A stretch of DNA of 38,749 nt. Source: Candidatus Omnitrophota bacterium (GTDB taxonomy: Bacteria > Omnitrophota > Omnitrophia > Omnitrophales > JACQLI01). Below, piece after piece: positions 14,080 to 28,947 of this stretch. The DNA lies in NCBI GenBank assembly GCA_016179745.1, contig JACPCP010000005.1, positions 1-38,749 on the forward strand, read 5' to 3'. Within the stretch, counting starts at the first letter, position 1, and each line of letters opens with the position of its first letter. Position numbers and translations under genes: made by a program. The notes below the pieces were generated by a model. That model did not search any database, was not told the origin of the DNA, and saw only the letters and a program-made list of their open reading frames with translations.

Positions 14080-16311
14080 TCAATGCGCCTTCCAATCGAC
14101 GATGAGGGCGTTGGCAACAAACACGGTGGAGTAAATTCCGATCGAGAAACCAATCAGGAGTATAAAGGCAAAATCGTTGATGGCCGCTCCGCCAAAGAAG
14201 AAAAGTGCGGCCGTGGCAAAAAGCACGGTCAGGGAGGTCAAAAAAGTCCGGGAAAGGGTCTGGTTGATGCTGAGGTCGACCAGTTCCTGGAAAGGCATTT
14301 TCCGGAAAATCTTCAAATTGTCCCGCACCCGGTCAAACGTCACAATCGTATCGTTCACCGAATAACCCATAATCGTCAGGATGGCGGCAATGATGGGAAG
14401 ATTAATCTCCCGGCCGGCCAGGGCATAGACGCCAAACGCAAACAGAGTGTCGTGCATCACGGCCACCACGGCGGCCAGCGCAAATTTCCATTCGAACCGC
14501 CAGCCGAGGTAAACCAGAATTCCGAGCGAGGACCAGAAGACCGCCCAAAGGGCTTTTTTCTGAAGGTCCCGGCTCACGGCGGGTCCGATGGAATCCACCC
14601 GGACGATCTCAAAACCCGCCTCTCCGGCCACGGCCTTGAAGGCATCTTCCAATTTCTTCGTTTCCCGTTCCAGGGTCTTCACCACAAACTCGTTACCCGA
14701 CTCTTCGCCGTAACGCTGGATCAATTCCCTGGCGAGCCCGGTTTTCCCGAGCGCCACCCGGATTTCCTCCGTCGAGACCGGCTTTGCGAAACGCACCTGG
14801 ACCAGCGTCCCCCCGACAAACTCCACGCCGTAATTCTGCCGGCCCCTCAGCGCAATCGTCCCCACCCCGAGGGCCAGGACCATCACCGAAAATCCGTAGG
14901 CCCAGAAACGGTTTTTGAGAAATTTAAAATTGGGCTTTTTGAAGGCCTGAAACATCTTGAGCTGCAGGTTGGGGTTTTTTCGGGTCAGAAAATCAAAGAC
15001 CACCCGGGTCACGACGATGGCGGAAAACATGCTGGCCAAAATACCGATGGTCAGTGTCACGGCAAAACCCTTCACCGGCCCCGTCCCGAAAACAAAGAGG
15101 ATGGCCGAGGTCACGAGCGTCGTAACATTCGAATCGAGAATGGCCGAGAAGGCCTTGTGGTAGCCGGCCGAAATGGCGGCCCGGCTGGTTTTCCCCGTCT
15201 CGAGTTCCTCCCGGATCCGCTCAAAAATCAGGATATTGGCGTCCACCGCCATGCCGATGGAAAGAATGAAACCCGCAATGCCGGGCAGAGTCAGCGAGGC
15301 GTGAAGAAGGGCCATGACCCCCATCGTCACCAGGCCATAGACAAGAAGGGCAAAGTCGGCGACCGCCCCCGCCAAAAGATAATAGAAAGGCATGAAGATA
15401 AAAACAAAGAGAGCGCCCCAAAGACCGGCCTGAATCCCTTTCGTGACCGAATCCCGGCCGAGACTCGGGCCCACAGTCCGCTCTTCCTCAATCACGACGG
15501 GGGCAGGAAGCGCCCCGGCCCTCAGCACGAGGGCAAGGTCACTGGCCTCCTCGGAGGAAAAATTTCCGGAAATCTGCGCCTGTCCGCTGGGGATCCGGTC
15601 CCTGATCACGGGCGCCGAATGGACTTTTCCGTCAAGGACGATCGCAAGGCGCCGCCCGATATTTTGAAAGGTGACCCGGTCAAAAATCTTGGCGCCGTCG
15701 CCATCGAGTTGAAGCTCGACAATCGGCTGGCCGTATTGGTCAAAACCCACCGAGGCATTGACCAGCCGGTCACCCGTCAGGACAGGCTCTTTTTGGAGAA
15801 GCAGGGTTTCTGTTCGGCCCCGGTCGGAAATAATTTTAAGCTCGTAGCCCTCGGGAATGCCCGCCACCGGCACGACGCCAACCGGTGCCGCTTCCTCCTT
15901 GTTAGGTTCTGTGGCTAACGCCGCCTGCTCGGCCTTTTGAATCAAATCGGAGTCTTCCGAGACGAGTTTAAATTCAAGATGTGCCGTCTTGCCGACAATC
16001 TCTTTCGCCCGCTCCCGGTCGGTAATGCCGGGAAGCTGGACCACCACAAGGTCTTTGGCCTGTTTGGTAATCGTGGGTTCCCGGACGCCGAATTCGTCAA
16101 TGCGGTTACGGATGATTTCAACCACCCGGTCTGTGGCGTCCTCCCGGGCCTCGGCCGGGACCTTCTCAAGCTCCACCCGGAGCAGGATCTGCATGCCCCC
16201 CTGAAGATCCAGGCCCAGATGAATTTTCTCTTGGGGCGGATAGACCTTCCAAAGAGAAAACCCGACAATCGCAATAATGAGGAGAACTTTCCATTTGTAA
16301 TATTTGTCCAT
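14080..16311 (-). CDS. secDF: Fused protein-export membrane protein SecDF
   Basis: This RND-type membrane protein uses proton motive force to pull preproteins from SecYEG. Residues 1-435 are SecD: an N-terminal helix, HLGLDLQGGMQILLRV, the large P1 periplasmic domain, and helices including GMAVDANILIFERIREEL and DSNVTTLVTSAIL. Residues about 440-743 are SecF, with YGVEFVGGTLVQVRF and GYSVNDTIVTFDRVRDNL. SecD and SecF are separate in many bacteria and fused here into 743 residues. yajC lies immediately upstream (3 bp), the classic neighbour. Confidence 0.96.
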   Translation of the reverse strand: MDKYYKWKVLLIIAIVGFSLWKVYPPQEKIHLGLDLQGGMQILLRVELEKVPAEAREDATDRVVEIIRNRIDEFGVREPTITKQAKDLVVVQLPGITDRERAKEIVGKTAHLEFKLVSEDSDLIQKAEQAALATEPNKEEAAPVGVVPVAGIPEGYELKIISDRGRTETLLLQKEPVLTGDRLVNASVGFDQYGQPIVELQLDGDGAKIFDRVTFQNIGRRLAIVLDGKVHSAPVIRDRIPSGQAQISGNFSSEEASDLALVLRAGALPAPVVIEEERTVGPSLGRDSVTKGIQAGLWGALFVFIFMPFYYLLAGAVADFALLVYGLVTMGVMALLHASLTLPGIAGFILSIGMAVDANILIFERIREELETGKTSRAAISAGYHKAFSAILDSNVTTLVTSAILFVFGTGPVKGFAVTLTIGILASMFSAIVVTRVVFDFLTRKNPNLQLKMFQAFKKPNFKFLKNRFWAYGFSVMVLALGVGTIALRGRQNYGVEFVGGTLVQVRFAKPVSTEEIRVALGKTGLARELIQRYGEESGNEFVVKTLERETKKLEDAFKAVAGEAGFEIVRVDSIGPAVSRDLQKKALWAVFWSSLGILVYLGWRFEWKFALAAVVAVMHDTLFAFGVYALAGREINLPIIAAILTIMGYSVNDTIVTFDRVRDNLKIFRKMPFQELVDLSINQTLSRTFLTSLTVLFATAALFFFGGAAINDFAFILLIGFSIGIYSTVFVANALIVDWKAH

Positions 16312-21227: not shown

Positions 21228-21310
21228 TCAGACCGAAAAAGGCAAATCCGCCGTAAGACGGAGACGCAAAGCCGCGGGACCCTGAGGGGCCAGCCGGGCT
21301 GCCGGTGACA
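21228..21310 (+). ncRNA. GEMM-I (cyclic di-GMP class I) riboswitch
   Basis: The conserved aptamer core is present in order. GGCAAA (21241-21246) leads into P2, TCCGCC-GTAA-GACGGA, with a GNRA tetraloop. The strictly conserved GACGCAAAGCC follows at 21263-21273. P3 begins GCGGGACCCTGAGG, and the 3' part AGCCGGGCTGCCG ends the domain. In Vibrio Vc2 numbering, position 20 appears to be G and position 92 C. Family knowledge ties that pair to cyclic di-GMP, while A20 marks the cGAMP subtype. The ligand is therefore an inference from alignment by eye. An intrinsic terminator follows 16 nt later, pointing to transcriptional control of the three-gene operon downstream. Confidence 0.88.
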
Positions 21311-21325
21311 ACAACGAAACGGTTT

Positions 21326-21375
21326 AAACCCATTTCCGGCAAAGATGCCTTTGTCGGCAATGGGTTTTTTGTTTT
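21326..21375 (+). terminator. Riboswitch-linked intrinsic terminator
   Basis: AAACCCATT (21326-21334) pairs with AATGGGTTT (21359-21367), and CCGGCAAAG pairs with CTTTGTCGG around an ATGC loop. The stem runs straight into a T tract (21365-21370, then GTTTT). It lies between the aptamer and the first gene, so it is very likely the expression platform. Confidence 0.85.
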
Positions 21376-21392
21376 CGGAAAGGAGAAGTGGA

Positions 21393-22091
21393 GTGGTAAC
21401 TAAAGCAAACAATTTTACAGCCGCAACCGCAGCTCTTTTATTCGTAGCTTTCAGTGGAATCCTGTTTAACCTGATGCCCCCTGCCTTCGCCGATGACGAC
21501 GCAAGACGGGAGTATGAGAGGCTGATGAAAAGAGAGGAAGAATTGGTAGGCTACGAGCCCCAGTCCATGTTTACCCCCAAGGGAGGGTCACACGGCTGGG
21601 ACAAATTCGAACAGGATGAACTCAATCGTGCAAGCGGAATCGATGTTCCCCCGCTCCCCCCACGAGACGTAGGTGACTTGGAAGGATGGGGAAATTACAT
21701 CAAAGAAGCAGAGCTTAAGCGAATCCGTGATAGAAAAAATGAAATCCGCCGGGGGGCTTTTGGCGGTGGTGACGACGGGCCGGCTCCAGCCCCAAGACCC
21801 AGTCCCAAGCCAAAACCCGAATACGGGCCATTCCGGGAAGGGGACCCTCGAAATAAACCGGCTCCGAAAAAGAGTCCGCCTCCTCACGGGGTCGGGCCCA
21901 CTGGACCTGAGCCGCTTCCCGCTGAAGATCCCAACCAATTTCAGGCAAAGGCCCCATTGCGGTTCGACGGTCTTCTTGGAAAATGGGGAATGAATCGAGG
22001 TGCGGGAAGTCAGGTCCTGGGGCATGCTTTTAAACAGGACACTTCGGCCAGCTCTTCTTCTTCGTTAAAGGCCGATTGTAATTATGGTTAA
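21393..22091 (+). CDS. Exported proline-rich protein with the FDG C-terminal motif
   Basis: I do not recognise a family. The start is GTG 21393, with AAGGAG 7 nt upstream. The ATG at 21345 in the same frame lies inside the terminator loop and is rejected. The 232-residue product has a signal peptide ending about PPAFA-DDD. A charged helical part follows (REYERLMKREEELVGYEP, then LKRIRDRKNEIRR). A Pro/Lys-rich linker (residues about 128-180) leads to a C-terminal segment, APLRFDGLLGKWGMNRG with SQVLGHAFKQDTSAS, a serine run and DC near the end. The 918-residue protein of the same operon ends in a related segment. Confidence 0.8.
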   Translation: MVTKANNFTAATAALLFVAFSGILFNLMPPAFADDDARREYERLMKREEELVGYEPQSMFTPKGGSHGWDKFEQDELNRASGIDVPPLPPRDVGDLEGWGNYIKEAELKRIRDRKNEIRRGAFGGGDDGPAPAPRPSPKPKPEYGPFREGDPRNKPAPKKSPPPHGVGPTGPEPLPAEDPNQFQAKAPLRFDGLLGKWGMNRGAGSQVLGHAFKQDTSASSSSSLKADCNYG

Positions 22092-22106
22092 AAAAAGAGA
22101 GGGGTT

Positions 22107-23198
22107 ATGAAAACAATAAAAAACAAGATCGGGTTCGTCGCAATAACAACTTTTCTGTGCCTCGTTTCACTGGGCTCACCGGGGAGTTACGCCGCACAAA
22201 CCTCGGAATCTTCTTCGGTCGCTCCGGCGCTGGACCATCTCAAACAGGGACGAATGCAGGAGGCGATTGCCTATCTCGAGGACCTTCTCAAAAAGGACCC
22301 GGCAGATGTTAAAGCCCGGCAGGTCCTGGCTAATGTCTACTTTTCTTCAAACGAGATCAAAAAGGCGGAGAAGGCTTACCTTGAAGTTCTCAAGATGGAA
22401 CCGAATGCCGAGGCCTACAACAATCTCGGCGTCGTTTACCTCAAAGAGGAAAACGCCGAGAAGGCGGTCGAGAGCTTGCAGAAGGCCGTTGAACTGGATC
22501 CTAACTTCACACGGGCCTATTTCAATTTGGGGGAGCTCTCCCTCATTTCCGGCAAGTTCCCCATGGCCCTCGCCTTTTTCAAGAAGGCGGAGACGATCGA
22601 CAAAAACCATCCTCTTGTCCACTACAAGCTCGGGGTCTCCCTCGCAAAAACCGGACGCCTCGAGGAGGCCTTGAAAGAATTTGAAGAGGCGGTGAAACGA
22701 GATCCGGACAATCTGCGGATCAAGAGTGATTTCGGGATGACTTACATGGCGGCCCGGAAATTTGACAGGGCCCAGGGAGAGTTTCAAAAGGTGGTTGCCA
22801 AAGCCCCTCGAAGCACCATTGCTCATTTCGGAATGGGACTTGCCCAGAAAGCGATGGGCCAGAGGGAAAAGGCGGTCGAATCATTTCAGAAGACTTACCT
22901 ATTGAGTCCGGAATTTATCGACCCTTACCTGGAGGCCGGGGACCTCCTCCGGAAACTCGGACGTGCGCCTGAAGCGGTCCAAGCCTACCAAAGGACGATT
23001 CCACTTTACGAAAAGACGCTGAAGCAGGACCCCAAAAATTCTCTGGCCCATTTGAAGTTTGCCAAGGTCCTGATCCACACCCGGCATTTCAAAGAGGCGA
23101 AGAAGCACCTCAAGGAAGCCCGAAGCCTGGAAAAAGACAAGGGCCCGCTGGCCGCTCAGGCGGCGGTCCTGACGGAGCGAATCAAAAATGAAGCGTAA
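22107..23198 (+). CDS. Exported tetratricopeptide-repeat protein
   Basis: The 363-residue product has a signal peptide (residues 1-29, ending SYAA). About nine TPR units follow from residue 40, for example GRMQEAIAYLEDLLKKDPAD, AEAYNNLGVVYLKEENAEKA and PLVHYKLGVSLAKTGRLEEA. The last units, near 270-355, are richer in lysine. There are no catalytic motifs, so it should be a protein-protein adaptor outside the cytoplasm or in the periplasm. GAGGGG lies just before ATG 22107. It starts 15 bp after the previous gene and overlaps the next by 11 bp, so all three are one operon. I infer a chaperone or assembly role for the two flanking exported proteins. Confidence 0.9.
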   Translation: MKTIKNKIGFVAITTFLCLVSLGSPGSYAAQTSESSSVAPALDHLKQGRMQEAIAYLEDLLKKDPADVKARQVLANVYFSSNEIKKAEKAYLEVLKMEPNAEAYNNLGVVYLKEENAEKAVESLQKAVELDPNFTRAYFNLGELSLISGKFPMALAFFKKAETIDKNHPLVHYKLGVSLAKTGRLEEALKEFEEAVKRDPDNLRIKSDFGMTYMAARKFDRAQGEFQKVVAKAPRSTIAHFGMGLAQKAMGQREKAVESFQKTYLLSPEFIDPYLEAGDLLRKLGRAPEAVQAYQRTIPLYEKTLKQDPKNSLAHLKFAKVLIHTRHFKEAKKHLKEARSLEKDKGPLAAQAAVLTERIKNEA

Positions 23199-25944
23199 GC
23201 CGCTCGTCAAGGTCCTCTCGCTGGCAAGTGCGGTCTTCCTTGCGATTTCCTTCCCTTCTTTTTCTTTTCTGACTCCCTCTTCTTCAATCGCCTTCGCCTG
23301 GCCCTGGTCTTCCGGCTCTGACGAAGATCCTGAAGGTTTTGGCGATGCAGATTCCCCGGACGCCTTTAATGACTCACAATACGCAGAACTCGACAACGAA
23401 CTGCAGGAATGGGAATCCTCGGGTGAACCCGATTATCCGACTGAAGATTTCGGCGATCTGGATTCCCCTGAGGGAAATAGTTCCTCTTACAGTCCTTCTT
23501 ACGGAACCGCCAGTAACTTTTCAAGTGGTCCAACCTCTGCTGCTTACCAAGGCGGGGGGGCTCTCTCCCTTTCTCAGGGAACCCTTCTTGACACCGGTTA
23601 TGACGGCGACTATTTCGATGCGACAGGAAATGTCAGCTACTTTGTCGGCACGCAGGCTCAAGGAACAGGCCAGGCCTCGTTGGGGCTCTCGGGCGCAAAT
23701 TTAGGTCTTCAGGCTAATTTTCTTGCGGGGGCTCAGACGTCCGCAAGTTTTCACAGCACTCTCCACCTTGGACTTTTCGACATCGAGACTCAAATCACCG
23801 GCTCTCTTACCACCGGATACAACGCCTCATTCAATGCTTCTCTTCAGCTGGGCGGTGACGGCATTACTTTCACTCAGGGAAGTTCCGTAGCCACCGGCTA
23901 CGGGCCAGGCTATCAAGCGCAAGTCAACATTAAACCCGGACCTATTTTACATAATATCGCTGATGCGATCGGAGGGATAACCGGGGCGGTGATTAATGGT
24001 TTGGGGAGTCTCTACCAATGGGCAACGGGCTCAGGCCCTCCGGTTCTCCATAACATCCCAACGAATACACCCCTCTTCGGCGGACAAAACTCACCGGATT
24101 ACTCAGCCTATTCGAGTTCGTTTAATCCAATGTATGCCGGAGAATTGGGCAAGCCCACCGGCAATCCCACTCCTCCGCCCAAGCCCGTCCCTCAAGGCCC
24201 TCAATTCTCCAGTGCCATGACTCAGAACTTGCCACCGGGAGTGATTGTGGGATGGACCCCTGAAACAGGAGTCGCCGTTTATGACCACCAAACCGGCGTC
24301 ACTCATACCGGATTGCCGGACAATTTATCGTTCGGTGACGTCGCCAAACTCATTCATGCGTGGAGGGAAGGTTTTACGGGCTGGAGCGGAGGAGGTGCGG
24401 GACCCGGCGGCGGACCAGGCAGCGGTCCCGCCGGCGGAGGCACCGGCGGCACAGGTGGCGGAAAGGGTCAGACAGGCGGCGGCAAAGGCAGCAGCAAAGA
24501 TGACGACGACAAGGGCGGGGACAAAGGTGGAGATAAGGGAGGCGACAAGGAAGGCGAAGGAGAGGGTGAAGGCGAAACAACGACCGAACCTTCTGAACCG
24601 TCCGCTGAGCCCTCTGAACCCTCGGGTCCTTCCGAACCTTCAACCGAGGAGATGGAGGTTGTCGAGGCCGAGGCGATGGCACCGACTTCGGGCGCAGACT
24701 GGGATTTTCTTCCCGACTTTGATCCGTCTTCAAGCAACCTCACCTTCATTGGCTCGGAGTATGCCGATGCCATGAGTAACCTTCTTAACCGTGCGGAAGA
24801 GTTTCTCCCGCCAGAGTCTATGGTCTTTGACCCCCAACGGGGTGACACCTTCTATAAGGTAGGTGGAGAAATGCTGACGAGCTTCGATTATACGGTGAAG
24901 GCGCTTGAAAAAGGAATGTCCGATGCGGCCTCCGAAGCGGGCGGGAAGGTTGCGATTGCGCGGACTTATATTGACGTTGCCGAGAAAAATCTAAAACAGG
25001 ATCAGGCGGAGCTTGAGCGGGTGAAGATAGAAAATCCCGAGCGCATCGGAGAGATCCAACGAAATATCGCCCACGACGAAAAAAGTCTTCAGGAGGCAAA
25101 GGCTCAGCATTCCGAGGCTATGAGCGAGATCCGGACCTTTGAGGCGGCGCTCGACCAACAAGTCCAACAGGGAGGGTTTGATTCCTATCAAGACTACAAA
25201 ACGAAAACTTCGGCCTCCGGCCCAACCCAGCAAGTCGGAACAAAGGCACCCGAAGGGGACGAGAAAAAGACCGCGCAGGCGGAACCGTCCGATACCTCAA
25301 CCACCGACTCTAATTTAACGGAGCCGGCTTCGGAACTGGCGTCCGGATTAGATGTAGACACCAACTATTGGGCCATAACAAGCGGAGTAGGGGGGTCACT
25401 TTCAGTAGGTAGCGGCTCGAACAATGTTAATTTAGCTCAGCAGCTTGGGTACGCTCAACTGCTTGATGCATCTTCCTCAACCCATCCTGTTGACAGCCTA
25501 GGGTTCGAAGTCGGTCTTGGAGCTCAGTACTGGGTCAATCCACAGGTCTCTGTCGGTTTTGAGATGTCAGCCCTTTTCGATTCCGATGCACCGGATGGTC
25601 AAAGCATGGGTTCAAGCGCCGAGGATAAGCCGTGGGAGTGGGCTTCAGGGGGCAGCTTTCAATTCACGGTTGCTCCTGAGCCAGTACCAATCTCCACAGG
25701 TTTAAAAGGGAAGTTAAAAACCGCGTTGAGCCAGGACGTGAAGCGCGACGCCACTCGGGCTCTGGAGCGGACCGCATCCCCGGCACCACAGGATAAACCC
25801 CTCCAATTCGACGGCTTCCTGGGAAGGCAGTTTCAAAATTCTGCCCTGTCGACACAGCTCTTCCAGGATACCAGCTTCAGCCAGGGGACATCGGGCGCAA
25901 GTCAGGCTTCCCACTCCAGCTCAGGTTCTGGTGGGGACTGTTAA
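23188..25944 (+). CDS. Large exported low-complexity protein with the FDG C-terminal motif
   Basis: I do not recognise a family. The 918-residue product has a signal peptide (about 1-37, ending SSIAFA). Then come an acidic Asp/Pro/Ser stretch (to about 110), a Gly/Ser/Gln-rich beta-like region (about 115-250), and an amphipathic segment (NIADAIGGITGAVINGLG near 255). These are followed by a proline-rich linker, a Gly/Lys/Asp block (about 400-458), a Glu/Pro/Ser block (about 462-490) and a coiled coil (about 565-660). Alternating strands reminiscent of an outer-membrane barrel occur near 725-830 (LGFEVGLGAQYWVNPQVSVG). The end, PLQFDGFLGRQFQN with TQLFQDTSFSQG, a serine run and final DC, matches the 21393 gene. 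A structural surface or matrix role is inferred. Confidence 0.85.
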   Translation: MKRKPLVKVLSLASAVFLAISFPSFSFLTPSSSIAFAWPWSSGSDEDPEGFGDADSPDAFNDSQYAELDNELQEWESSGEPDYPTEDFGDLDSPEGNSSSYSPSYGTASNFSSGPTSAAYQGGGALSLSQGTLLDTGYDGDYFDATGNVSYFVGTQAQGTGQASLGLSGANLGLQANFLAGAQTSASFHSTLHLGLFDIETQITGSLTTGYNASFNASLQLGGDGITFTQGSSVATGYGPGYQAQVNIKPGPILHNIADAIGGITGAVINGLGSLYQWATGSGPPVLHNIPTNTPLFGGQNSPDYSAYSSSFNPMYAGELGKPTGNPTPPPKPVPQGPQFSSAMTQNLPPGVIVGWTPETGVAVYDHQTGVTHTGLPDNLSFGDVAKLIHAWREGFTGWSGGGAGPGGGPGSGPAGGGTGGTGGGKGQTGGGKGSSKDDDDKGGDKGGDKGGDKEGEGEGEGETTTEPSEPSAEPSEPSGPSEPSTEEMEVVEAEAMAPTSGADWDFLPDFDPSSSNLTFIGSEYADAMSNLLNRAEEFLPPESMVFDPQRGDTFYKVGGEMLTSFDYTVKALEKGMSDAASEAGGKVAIARTYIDVAEKNLKQDQAELERVKIENPERIGEIQRNIAHDEKSLQEAKAQHSEAMSEIRTFEAALDQQVQQGGFDSYQDYKTKTSASGPTQQVGTKAPEGDEKKTAQAEPSDTSTTDSNLTEPASELASGLDVDTNYWAITSGVGGSLSVGSGSNNVNLAQQLGYAQLLDASSSTHPVDSLGFEVGLGAQYWVNPQVSVGFEMSALFDSDAPDGQSMGSSAEDKPWEWASGGSFQFTVAPEPVPISTGLKGKLKTALSQDVKRDATRALERTASPAPQDKPLQFDGFLGRQFQNSALSTQLFQDTSFSQGTSGASQASHSSSGSGGDC

Positions 25945-25960: not shown

Positions 25961-26032
25961 AAAAAAAGGGGACAGGAAAAAAGAGGAAGTCACTTTTCTC
26001 CTTTTTGCCTGTCCCTTTTTGGGGACAGTCCC
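25961..26032. repeat. Palindromic GGGGACAGG-type repeat after the riboswitch operon
   Basis: AAAAAAAGGGGACAGG (from 25961) is matched inverted by CCTGTCCCTTTTT (ending 26020) across an AAAAAAGAGGAAG/CTCCTTTTT stem. A GGGGACAGTCCC palindrome follows. The strong stem followed by T runs would also terminate the upstream operon. Its family members are at 9405-9466 and 17731-17770. Confidence 0.8.
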
Positions 26033-26725: not shown

Positions 26726-27714
26726 TGGGAAAGGGCCGAGGGGCGTAAAATAACCTTGAGAGACGTGCCGGCGCCCGAAGCCAGATGGAAACCTTCCTGG
26801 ATATTTTCAAAAGGAAGGCGATGGGTAATCAAATCTTCGACATCCATTTTGCGGTCCCGAAGAAGCGCCAGGGATTCTGCCAAGTCCCGGGGTGCGGCGC
26901 CGTAGGAAGAAGTGACCGTGACCTCGTTTCTCCAAAAATCAAGGGTCGGGATTTCAACGTTCACGGAAGGAATGGCGAAGAGAAGCACCACCCCTTTCCT
27001 CGCCACGCACTCAAAGGCCTGCTTCACCGCTTCCAAGGCGCCTGCACAGACAATCACCCGATCTGCTTCCAGGCGGAGCGGCTGTCTTGCGTCCAAGACC
27101 TCGTCAGCCCCCGACTCCTTCGCCTTTTGGCGCCGAAAGGGGTCGAGGTCCGTGGCAAGGACCCGGGCGCCCATCAGCTTGGCGACACGAATATTCAGAA
27201 GGCCCGAGATGCCGCTTCCCAGAATTAAGACCGTCTGCCCCGCCTTGACGTTGATCACCCTCTGAGCTCTCAAGGCACAAGCCAAGGGCTCAATCAGGGT
27301 CCCGGCTTCGTAGGAAATCCCTTCGGGCAGGACGTAAGTCCCCTTCTCCACGTTCAACCGGGGGACCCTCACAAATTCACTGTAGCCTCCCGGGTCGTAA
27401 TTGCCCTGGTGGAGGGTTTCACAGGCGGTGTGATTTCCTTCCAGACAGAATTTGCAGTGGTCGCAGGGAACATGATGGCTGACAAAGACCCGCTGGCCGA
27501 TTTTGTATTTCGGTGATTTCGACTCGGCAATTTCACCGGTCATTTCGTGGCCGAGAACCCGGGGGGCCTTTTTGATTCGATACCACTCCATCAAGTCCGT
27601 GCCGCAAATTCCGGAGGCCCTGACCTTGACAAGAAGTTCCCCTTCGCCGATCTCGGGACGGCGCCTCTCTTCAAGGCGGATATCGTTATTCTTATAGTAA
27701 ACGGCCACTTTCAT
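26722..27714 (-). CDS. Zinc-dependent medium-chain alcohol/polyol dehydrogenase
   Basis: This is an NAD(P)-dependent MDR enzyme of 330 residues. Catalytic zinc ligands are seen at Cys37 (GICGTD) and His56-Glu57 (GHEMTGEI). The structural zinc cysteines are 84, 87, 90 and 98 (CDHCKFC...C). The Rossmann glycine motif is ILGSGISGLLNIRVAKLMGA, and an acidic residue follows in ATDLD, favouring NAD. It resembles sorbitol or threonine dehydrogenases, but the substrate cannot be told. The gene lies 25 bp after the LsrF-like aldolase, suggesting that the pair handles one sugar-derived intermediate. Confidence 0.9.
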   Translation of the reverse strand: MKVAVYYKNNDIRLEERRRPEIGEGELLVKVRASGICGTDLMEWYRIKKAPRVLGHEMTGEIAESKSPKYKIGQRVFVSHHVPCDHCKFCLEGNHTACETLHQGNYDPGGYSEFVRVPRLNVEKGTYVLPEGISYEAGTLIEPLACALRAQRVINVKAGQTVLILGSGISGLLNIRVAKLMGARVLATDLDPFRRQKAKESGADEVLDARQPLRLEADRVIVCAGALEAVKQAFECVARKGVVLLFAIPSVNVEIPTLDFWRNEVTVTSSYGAAPRDLAESLALLRDRKMDVEDLITHRLPFENIQEGFHLASGAGTSLKVILRPSALSQ

Positions 27715-27739
27715 GGAGGGGTCCCCCGCAGGGAAGGCT

Positions 27740-28540
27740 TCAGGCCCGGGAGCCGGAAAGTTGCTTGCCGCCTTCGTAGATTTGAAGGGCCCGTTCGACG
27801 GAAGCCTCTTCGTGGACGATCGCCCTCACGGCTTGAATCATCCGAATAGGATCCTCGGACTGGAAGACATTTCTCCCCATATCAACGCCGGCCGCACCGG
27901 CCTTCACTGCATTGAACGACATCTCGAGGGCCTCTTTCTCTTTGATCTTCTTGCCGCCGGCAATGATGACCGGGACTTTTCCACACGCCTCCACCACCTT
28001 TTGGAAATCTTCGCAGTAGTAGGTTTTAACCATATGAGCGCCGATTTCAACGCAGATTCTCGAGGCGAGCGCCAGGTAGCGGGCGTCCCGTGTCAACTCC
28101 TTCCCTACGGCCGTCACGGCCAGGACCGGGATGCCATACGCTTCTCCTTCATTCACGATCTTTGCCAGGTTCGCAATCGACTCTTTCTCATACTCGCCGC
28201 CGACATAAACAGAGCAGGTCATTGCAGAGGCGTTGATTCGAATAGCGTCCTCAATCGAGGTTGTGATGACCTCATTGGAGAGCTCTTTCAAAATACTCTG
28301 CCCTCCCGACACCCTCAGAACGACCGGCTTCGTCATCTGAGGCTGAATCCAGTTCCTCAACGCCCCCCGGGTAATCATCAGGGCATCGGCGTAGGGAAGC
28401 AGCGGATTCACCGTCTTTCCCAGATTCTCCAAGCCGGTGGTCGGCCCCTGAAAATAACCGTGGTCGACAGCCAGCATCACACAACGCCCCGTCTTCGGAT
28501 TCACAATCCTCGAAAGTCGATTCATCATCCCCCAATCCAT
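27740..28540 (-). CDS. lsrF: LsrF/DhnA-type class I aldolase or thiolase
   Basis: The product of 266 residues closely follows E. coli LsrF, which transfers the acetyl group of phospho-AI-2 product to CoA. Matching blocks are SRIVNPKTGRCVMLAVDHGY, FQGPTTGLENL, LSNEVITTSIEDAIRINA and GVDMGRNVFQSEDP. The Schiff-base lysine is Lys172 in AHMVKTYY. No lsrK, lsrR, lsrG or transporter genes are beside it. It may therefore act on another sugar phosphate, as related DhnA-type aldolases do. AAAGGAGG precedes ATG 28540. Family is certain; the substrate is not. Confidence 0.85.
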   Translation of the reverse strand: MDWGMMNRLSRIVNPKTGRCVMLAVDHGYFQGPTTGLENLGKTVNPLLPYADALMITRGALRNWIQPQMTKPVVLRVSGGQSILKELSNEVITTSIEDAIRINASAMTCSVYVGGEYEKESIANLAKIVNEGEAYGIPVLAVTAVGKELTRDARYLALASRICVEIGAHMVKTYYCEDFQKVVEACGKVPVIIAGGKKIKEKEALEMSFNAVKAGAAGVDMGRNVFQSEDPIRMIQAVRAIVHEEASVERALQIYEGGKQLSGSRA

Positions 28541-28590
28541 AACAAATCCTCCTTTGCTATTTTAACCGGACGGCGTCCCGTCGGGACGCA

Positions 28591-28632
28591 TTTCTGCGAA
28601 GCCCCGCCGCCTTTCGGCGGGGCGAAGCAGAA
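28591..28632. repeat. Strong GC hairpin downstream of tRNA-Arg
   Basis: TTCTGC, then AAGCCCCGCC, is mirrored by GGCGGGGC, GAA, GCAGAA around a GCCTTTC loop. There is no T tract on either side, so it is more likely an intergenic repeat or an mRNA-stabilising structure than a standard terminator. Confidence 0.6.
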
Positions 28633-28633
28633 C

Positions 28634-28705
28634 GCGCCCGAGAGGACTCGAACCTCCAACCCCAGGCTCCGGAGGCCTGTGCTCTGTCCGTTGAGCTACG
28701 GGCGC
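28634..28705 (-). tRNA. tRNA-Arg (anticodon CCG)
   Basis: The 72-nt cloverleaf on the minus strand is complete. It has the acceptor GCGCCCG/CGGGCGC, D arm GCTC/GAGC, anticodon stem CAGGC/GCCTG with loop CTCCGGA (anticodon CCG, reads CGG), and T arm GGAGG-TTCGAGT-CCTCT with one G-U pair. The 3' CCA is not encoded. Its 5' end touches the first copy of a ~104-bp repeat. Confidence 0.96.
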
Positions 28706-28803
28706 ACGTCTCTCTATAATTCACTACCTCTCGTAATTCGTGTGAGGGACTTTTCTACGCAATCCCCTCAACCTAGCAGCCCCGTCGAAGACGGGGCGGG
28801 CGC
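28701..28803. repeat. ~104-bp dispersed repeat, copy 1
   Basis: The copy begins GGCGCACGTCTC and ends with CCTAGCAGCCCCGTC-GAA-GACGGGGCGGGCGC, a GC hairpin. It shares the inner phrases ATAATTC, TTCGTGTGAGG and ACGCA-TCCCCT with copy 3. The first bases overlap the tRNA-Arg acceptor stem. No coding sequence is seen in it. Confidence 0.75.
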
Positions 28804-28843
28804 AGAATACAATGCACCCTCCCGGCATCTTTTCGCCGGGGCG

Positions 28844-28947
28844 GGCGCACGTCTCATGATATTAAACCACCTCTCACCCTGCGTGAGAGGAACTTCAACT
28901 GCCCACTCCCCTTGACCTAGCAGTCCCGCCGCAGGCGGGGCGGGCGC
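28844..28947. repeat. ~104-bp dispersed repeat, copy 2
   Basis: Same boundaries (GGCGCACGTCTC ... CCTAGCAGTCCCGCC-GCA-GGCGGGGCGGGCGC), 40 bp after copy 1. The middle is more divergent, with GCGTGAGAGGAAC in place of TTCGTGTGAGGGAC. The 28541-28957 gap otherwise holds only the tRNA, the GC hairpin and short GC stems. Confidence 0.75.

Follow-up and report, generated by a model that had tools for sequence, protein, structure and literature searches.

The CdrA protein of the CdrA/CdrB two-partner adhesin is under the control of the second messenger cyclic di-GMP (c-di-GMP). Here we describe an operon of an uncultured Candidatus Omnitrophota bacterium (assembly GCA_016179745.1) in which a GEMM-I (c-di-GMP-I) riboswitch stands before genes for two exported proteins that share a C-terminal tail around a single cysteine, with the gene for an exported tetratricopeptide repeat (TPR) protein between them. 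The stretch of DNA analyzed, which we call the window, is 38,749 nucleotides long and is the whole of contig C5 (JACPCP010000005.1) in a 1.5-Mb genome that comprises 25 contigs and is 79% complete. The operon would resemble CdrA/CdrB (PMC7616799) in linking c-di-GMP to a large protein that a cysteine feature at its C-terminus holds on the surface, and it differs in having a single Cys instead of a hook, no TpsA domain and no barrel partner next door: Pfam gave no match to a TpsA secretion domain at the N-terminus of the third gene's product, and no TpsB barrel partner was seen among the neighboring window genes scanned with Pfam, the rest of the genome not having been searched. MYXO-CTERM/myxosortase tags are likewise C-terminal, carry a key cysteine and sit on exported proteins, and lipidation of that cysteine has been proposed (PMC11980579). 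The tail described here has a different motif, no Arg-rich end and no match to any Pfam or NCBIfam family; it also has no transmembrane segment and is therefore not MYXO-CTERM-like. The TPR protein belongs in the company of PrsT (PEP-CTERM/XrtA), MamA and PilW, exported TPR proteins of envelope and secretion systems, but it falls under each curated cut-off (125.9 against 312.2 bits for PrsT, TIGR02917; 152 against 200 bits for MamA, NF040959), and its partner proteins lack the PEP-CTERM motif. As for the switch, it has the aptamer, pocket nucleotides, terminator right behind and exported or surface genes downstream of known c-di-GMP-I riboswitches (RF01051); what sets it apart is a platform hairpin that is near-identical across families and tied to the tail proteins.

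Two exported proteins with a shared lone-cysteine tail

The three genes lie on the forward strand at 21393-22091 (gene 1), 22107-23198 (gene 2) and 23188-25944 (gene 3), with a 15-nt gap between the first two and an 11-nt overlap between the last two, so that the coordinates agree with the sequence-only reading, which had taken these close-set genes for one unit. All three N-termini resemble Sec signal peptides, as judged by eye without a predictor. Gene 1 encodes an exported Pro-rich protein (P0003, 232 amino acids), gene 2 the exported TPR protein (P0001, 363 amino acids) and gene 3 an exported modular low-complexity protein (P0002, 918 amino acids). What the sequence-only reading had missed is a link between genes 1 and 3, a common C-terminal tail of the form PL[R/Q]FDG[L/F]LG..QDTS..(S/G)n..DC (blastp E 0.002). 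Sequence and profile comparison place it at 21957-22088(+) in gene 1, where it reads PLRFDGLLG...FKQDTS...KADCNYG, and at 25801-25941(+) in gene 3, where it reads PLQFDGFLG...LFQDTS...GGDC. Its layout is a short amphipathic, helix-like F-D-x-(L/F/I) motif, a Ser/Gly/Pro-rich linker and a single Cys at the end. This Cys is the only one in each mature protein, three residues from the end in gene 1 and the very last residue in gene 3.

Members of the tail family occur in six genomes (G000, G001, G013, G016, G024 and G028), and in eight tail proteins, of 200-900 amino acids, the mature form has a single Cys that only 0-7 residues follow. In leave-one-out profile searches among 1307 decoy C-termini, six of the nine tails came first (E 1e-13 to 0.2). 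The E-values of the tail profile are those of its own training sequences, except for G028:C94 (E 1e-4). G016:C19 was first detected at E 0.56 by a profile built without it and proved on closer reading to be a real tail protein; other weak matches in the tail search looked like noise. Membership of the gene 3 tail and of two G013 tails is based on pairwise similarity, position and the Cys.

Riboswitch and expression platform

A GEMM-I aptamer had been proposed here from the sequence, and Rfam covariance models place one at 21231-21307(+). RF01051 matches in full length at 21231-21306 (model positions 1-87) with 64.3 bits, above its gathering score of 35, and RF03167 (c-di-GMP-I-GGC) matches in full length at 21232-21307(+) with 64.6 bits (E 3.4e-13), above its gathering score of 59 and just 0.3 bits ahead of RF01051. 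We rejected the GGC variant, whose consensus has G at the 47-equivalent (GACGCGAAG) where the window has A (GACGCAAAG); the diagnostic base being absent, the aptamer was handled as the canonical c-di-GMP type. Equivalents of the Vc2 pocket nucleotides G20, A47 and C92 are present at about 21241, 21268 and 21302 (AAGGCAAA, GACGCAAAG and GCTGCCGG), on a Vc2 numbering applied by hand. The riboswitch is of an already known class, and it is the sole GEMM-I element found in this genome. The genome also codes for an RFGGEEF diguanylate cyclase fused to HD-GYP, a GGDDF protein and a degenerate third; Asp stands at the base-selectivity position of both the RFGGEEF and the GGDDF protein. From the key nucleotides and these enzymes, c-di-GMP is most likely the ligand.

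Directly behind the aptamer, at 21326-21370(+), lies a strong intrinsic terminator (AAACCCATTTCCGG...CGGCAATGGGTTTTTT; whole element AAACCCATTTCCGGCAAAGATGCCTTTGTCGGCAATGGGTTTTTT), as the sequence-only reading had stated, which sequence reading, folding and its presence in relatives lead us to regard as the expression platform. It has a stem of 18 bp with one mismatch and folds at -24.7 kcal/mol. When window transcripts of 112-118 nt are folded, an antiterminator appears in which the terminator's 5' arm is paired to the 3' strand of P1; an OFF switch would fit this pairing in the window RNA, a pairing that is not kept in relatives (L038). The hairpin itself is near-identical to the window's in all four riboswitch-linked tail operons. 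Searched for as the pattern AACCCATTTN{8,30}AATGGGTTTTTT in 384 Omnitrophota genomes, it gave five matches, every one behind a GEMM-I aptamer, and none in the reversed control. Four of the five belong to the tail operons of G000, G001, G024 and G028, and the fifth (G037:C115) is followed by an exported repeat protein. At several aptamers of G013 the hairpin recurs in variant form.

Switch, tail and TPR gene in relatives

Within the order of the host, sampled by 47 genomes, RF01051 is present in 32, and we read the downstream genes at 77 such loci. Tail proteins follow the riboswitch at four of them, in G001 (as the third gene of the operon), G013, G028 and G024, and the combination of switch, near-identical terminator and tail protein is kept by relatives from three families of the order. 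Among the 120 complete proteins downstream of GEMM-I, a single Cys placed within the last ten residues marks exactly the four tail proteins and none of the other 116. In G013, a riboswitch of this kind precedes a tail protein homologous to gene 1 (P0004; blastp E 3e-5), and no TPR gene accompanies it. In G024 the order is switch, small tail protein and a TPR gene in the position of gene 2, its product 49% identical, with the contig ending inside that gene. A failure of relatives to keep the three genes together had been named as a refutation, and it applies in part: G024 has the switch, the small tail protein and the TPR gene, G013 lacks the last, and only the window has the full trio.

The Rfam match, canonical pocket, conserved platform, GGDEF enzymes and recurrence of the same switch before related exported proteins support the proposal that a cyclic dinucleotide controls this operon. 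The accompanying suggestion, that of a surface structure served by a TPR assembly factor of its own, is a possible reading, for which the TPR ortholog that follows a GEMM-I-controlled tail protein in G024 speaks.

Interpretation of the tail

Aptamer, terminator, operon layout, lone terminal Cys and co-occurrence in relatives, with tail similarity in part of the set, are supported by the genomic sequence, and so, at that level, is the regulated expression of an exported TPR protein together with two tail proteins that have a lone Cys. The reading that we lean toward, at slightly less than an even chance, is that the tail is an attachment or cross-linking handle of c-di-GMP-controlled secreted surface proteins, with the TPR protein as periplasmic helper. 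A c-di-GMP riboswitch that acts by transcription termination would set how much the operon makes of two secreted proteins, largely disordered and belonging to the surface or matrix, and of a periplasmic TPR protein. As a handle, the tail would be recognized either in the course of export or afterwards, with the TPR protein as a candidate for this recognition, and the lone cysteine would fix the protein to the cell surface or cross-link it to partners. Switch, platform and tail would then make up a small regulon belonging to one order of Omnitrophota, and its proteins may give the cells a regulated coat, possibly a covalent one. We infer the ligand identity, the direction of regulation, the contact between TPR protein and tail, the covalent attachment and the surface location. 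A further GEMM-I element in G001 precedes a gene of the Peptidase_C93 (LapG-type) family, which fits a control of surface proteins by c-di-GMP. It is also possible, although we consider it rather unlikely, that the tail is a C-terminal tag for attachment or sorting of a kind not described before, centered on one terminal cysteine and lacking a transmembrane segment, used by a c-di-GMP riboswitch regulon of this order and served by its own processing enzyme.

Several findings weigh against a handle. The leave-one-out profiles rank the gene 3 tail only 45th and the two G013 tails 4th and 9th, and two tail relatives (G028:C94 and the first gene of G001) have no Cys. No riboswitch was detected before G013:C20, G016:C19 or G028:C94, the last of which borders the end of its contig. 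G020 has a solitary TPR ortholog with no riboswitch, and the full trio occurs in the window genome only. No partner enzyme for the tail cysteine was identified, and beyond the coiled coil of gene 3 the structure models are of poor quality.

The strongest competitor, which we regard as somewhat unlikely, is that these are ordinary c-di-GMP-controlled, fast-evolving exported proteins, whose common tail reflects paralog descent within one operon type and whose Cys has no special role. Exported low-complexity proteins do diverge fast, genes 1 and 3 otherwise share little, and exported genes are often under GEMM-I control in the order (32 of 47 genomes carry GEMM-I); the Cys is also absent from some tail relatives. 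Descent alone sits less well with the retention of a lone Cys 0-7 residues from the end in eight proteins when none of the 116 other complete GEMM-downstream proteins has one, or with the presence of the tail on unrelated bodies, which are variously beta-strand-rich, coiled-coil, repeat and Pro-rich.

The tail might instead direct secretion through an export route of its own across the outer membrane, with the TPR protein as the periplasmic adaptor that brings the tail proteins there. Such a role would suit a C-terminal element whose recognizable part is the short amphipathic F-D-x-(L/F/I) motif, and a TPR gene between or after the tail-protein genes, as in the window and G024. We nevertheless think it quite improbable: no translocon gene was seen adjoining any tail locus, and no TPR gene adjoins the tail protein in the G001, G013 and G028 loci. 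Lipidation of the terminal Cys, giving surface lipoproteins anchored by their C-terminus, is suggested by the one Cys in a Ser/Gly-rich C-terminal context and by analogy with the proposal for MYXO-CTERM (PMC11980579), but the tail has only 0-7 mostly polar residues after the Cys and neither a transmembrane helix nor an Arg cluster, which makes this very unlikely. Finally, Geobacter GEMM-I aptamers can be selective for cyclic GMP-AMP (cGAMP), and an A-to-G change switches one of them from cGAMP to c-di-GMP (PMC6456294), but the window aptamer has G where the cGAMP-selective aptamer has A and the host GGDEF enzymes bear Asp, not Ser, at the selectivity site, so a cGAMP sensor (GEMM-Ib) is hardly probable at all.

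Features of the three genes and their surroundings

Gene 1 was listed with a start at ATG 21345, which we rejected for its position inside the terminator; a better start is GTG 21393, 7 nt after a Shine-Dalgarno sequence, AAGGAG, read directly at 21380-21385(+). Its product has no credible match in Pfam or NCBIfam, and strong matches occur in two of the 384 genomes, host included. Gene 2 has strong matches in three, host again counted; Pfam and NCBIfam return only generic TPR families for it, and a PDB sequence search only generic TPR proteins.

For gene 3, Pfam gave no match, NCBIfam one sub-threshold match over the coiled-coil part, and neither a search in named genomes nor a PDB sequence search gave any. 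Its AlphaFold model has a mean predicted local distance difference test score (pLDDT) of 44, against 40 for a strand-rich protein of G013. Residues 565-660 (24880-25167(+)) are predicted as a helical hairpin or coiled coil with pLDDT up to 96, and residues 161-250 (23668-23937(+)) as beta-strand-rich with moderate to low confidence; the remainder is predicted disorder. Residues 720-758 (25345-25461(+)) are shared with a G013 tail protein (56% identity over 41 amino acids). We considered a trimeric autotransporter or a carrier of an outer-membrane barrel and dropped both, as the structure model gives no support.

Right after gene 3, an imperfect inverted repeat at 25967-26030 (GGGGACAGGAAAAA...TTTTTGCCTGTCCC) is probably either the terminator of the operon or a small repeat. 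The operon is surrounded by housekeeping genes in a Pfam scan, such as those for queuosine synthesis, SecDF and RecJ. At 27713-28915(+) lies a Pfam-negative open reading frame of 400 amino acids that overlaps a tRNA gene at 28633-28705(-) and is doubtful as a gene.

Other GEMM-I loci of the order

Ten GEMM-I aptamers carry a two-hairpin insert of 40-70 nt in the joining strand between P1b (..GAC) and CAAA, beside the ligand-stacking A47 (L038 at 23960, L200, L202, L195, L207, L197, L204, L187, L208 and L225, from G001, G015, G002, G005, three times G013, G003, G021 and G037). Their layout is constant and their sequences differ, with fold z-scores of -2.1 to -6.6. No separate Rfam family covers them, a literature search found no description, and they are possibly a new GEMM-I subtype. 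In six other aptamers a two-hairpin insert sits in P1b instead, on its 5' strand (L199, L186, L190 at 940, L188, L205 and L073 at 38267).

A frequent GEMM-I target is an exported protein of about 180 amino acids, several behind tandem aptamers (L036 605-1222, L041, L050, L052, L054, L058, L065, L067, L068, L069, L073 and others); the single one tested is a BTLCP/Peptidase_C93 transglutaminase-like (LapG-type) protein. At L057 and L062 the switch is followed by a large TPR protein, a PqqD-like protein and ATP-grasp-like enzymes, resembling a riboswitch-controlled peptide-modifying cluster. GEMM-I also precedes exported proteins at L042, L053, L056, L186 and L191; the L042 protein, the only one tested, is FGE-sulfatase-like. 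In the first four of these loci, a giant protein with (N/G)(I/V)NWxD(L/F) repeats comes next, of at least 2541 amino acids in L042. L204 3-1610 (G013:C45) encodes a riboswitch-controlled exported protein with a signal peptide, a flagellin-like segment (NGLKTNKAADDSAGLGVSESARHAAL) and repeats, and without a Pfam match. L223 (G013:C6, aptamer 16167-16306) is an orphan GEMM-I element with a terminator and no same-strand gene within about 2 kb.

Significance

One protein feature is tied here to a riboswitch, down to its terminator hairpin, across families, so that a second-messenger regulon can be read directly from genomes. If the tail is an attachment handle, it would provide a catalog of the surface proteins placed under c-di-GMP control in these uncultured bacteria, and would name the one residue in question.

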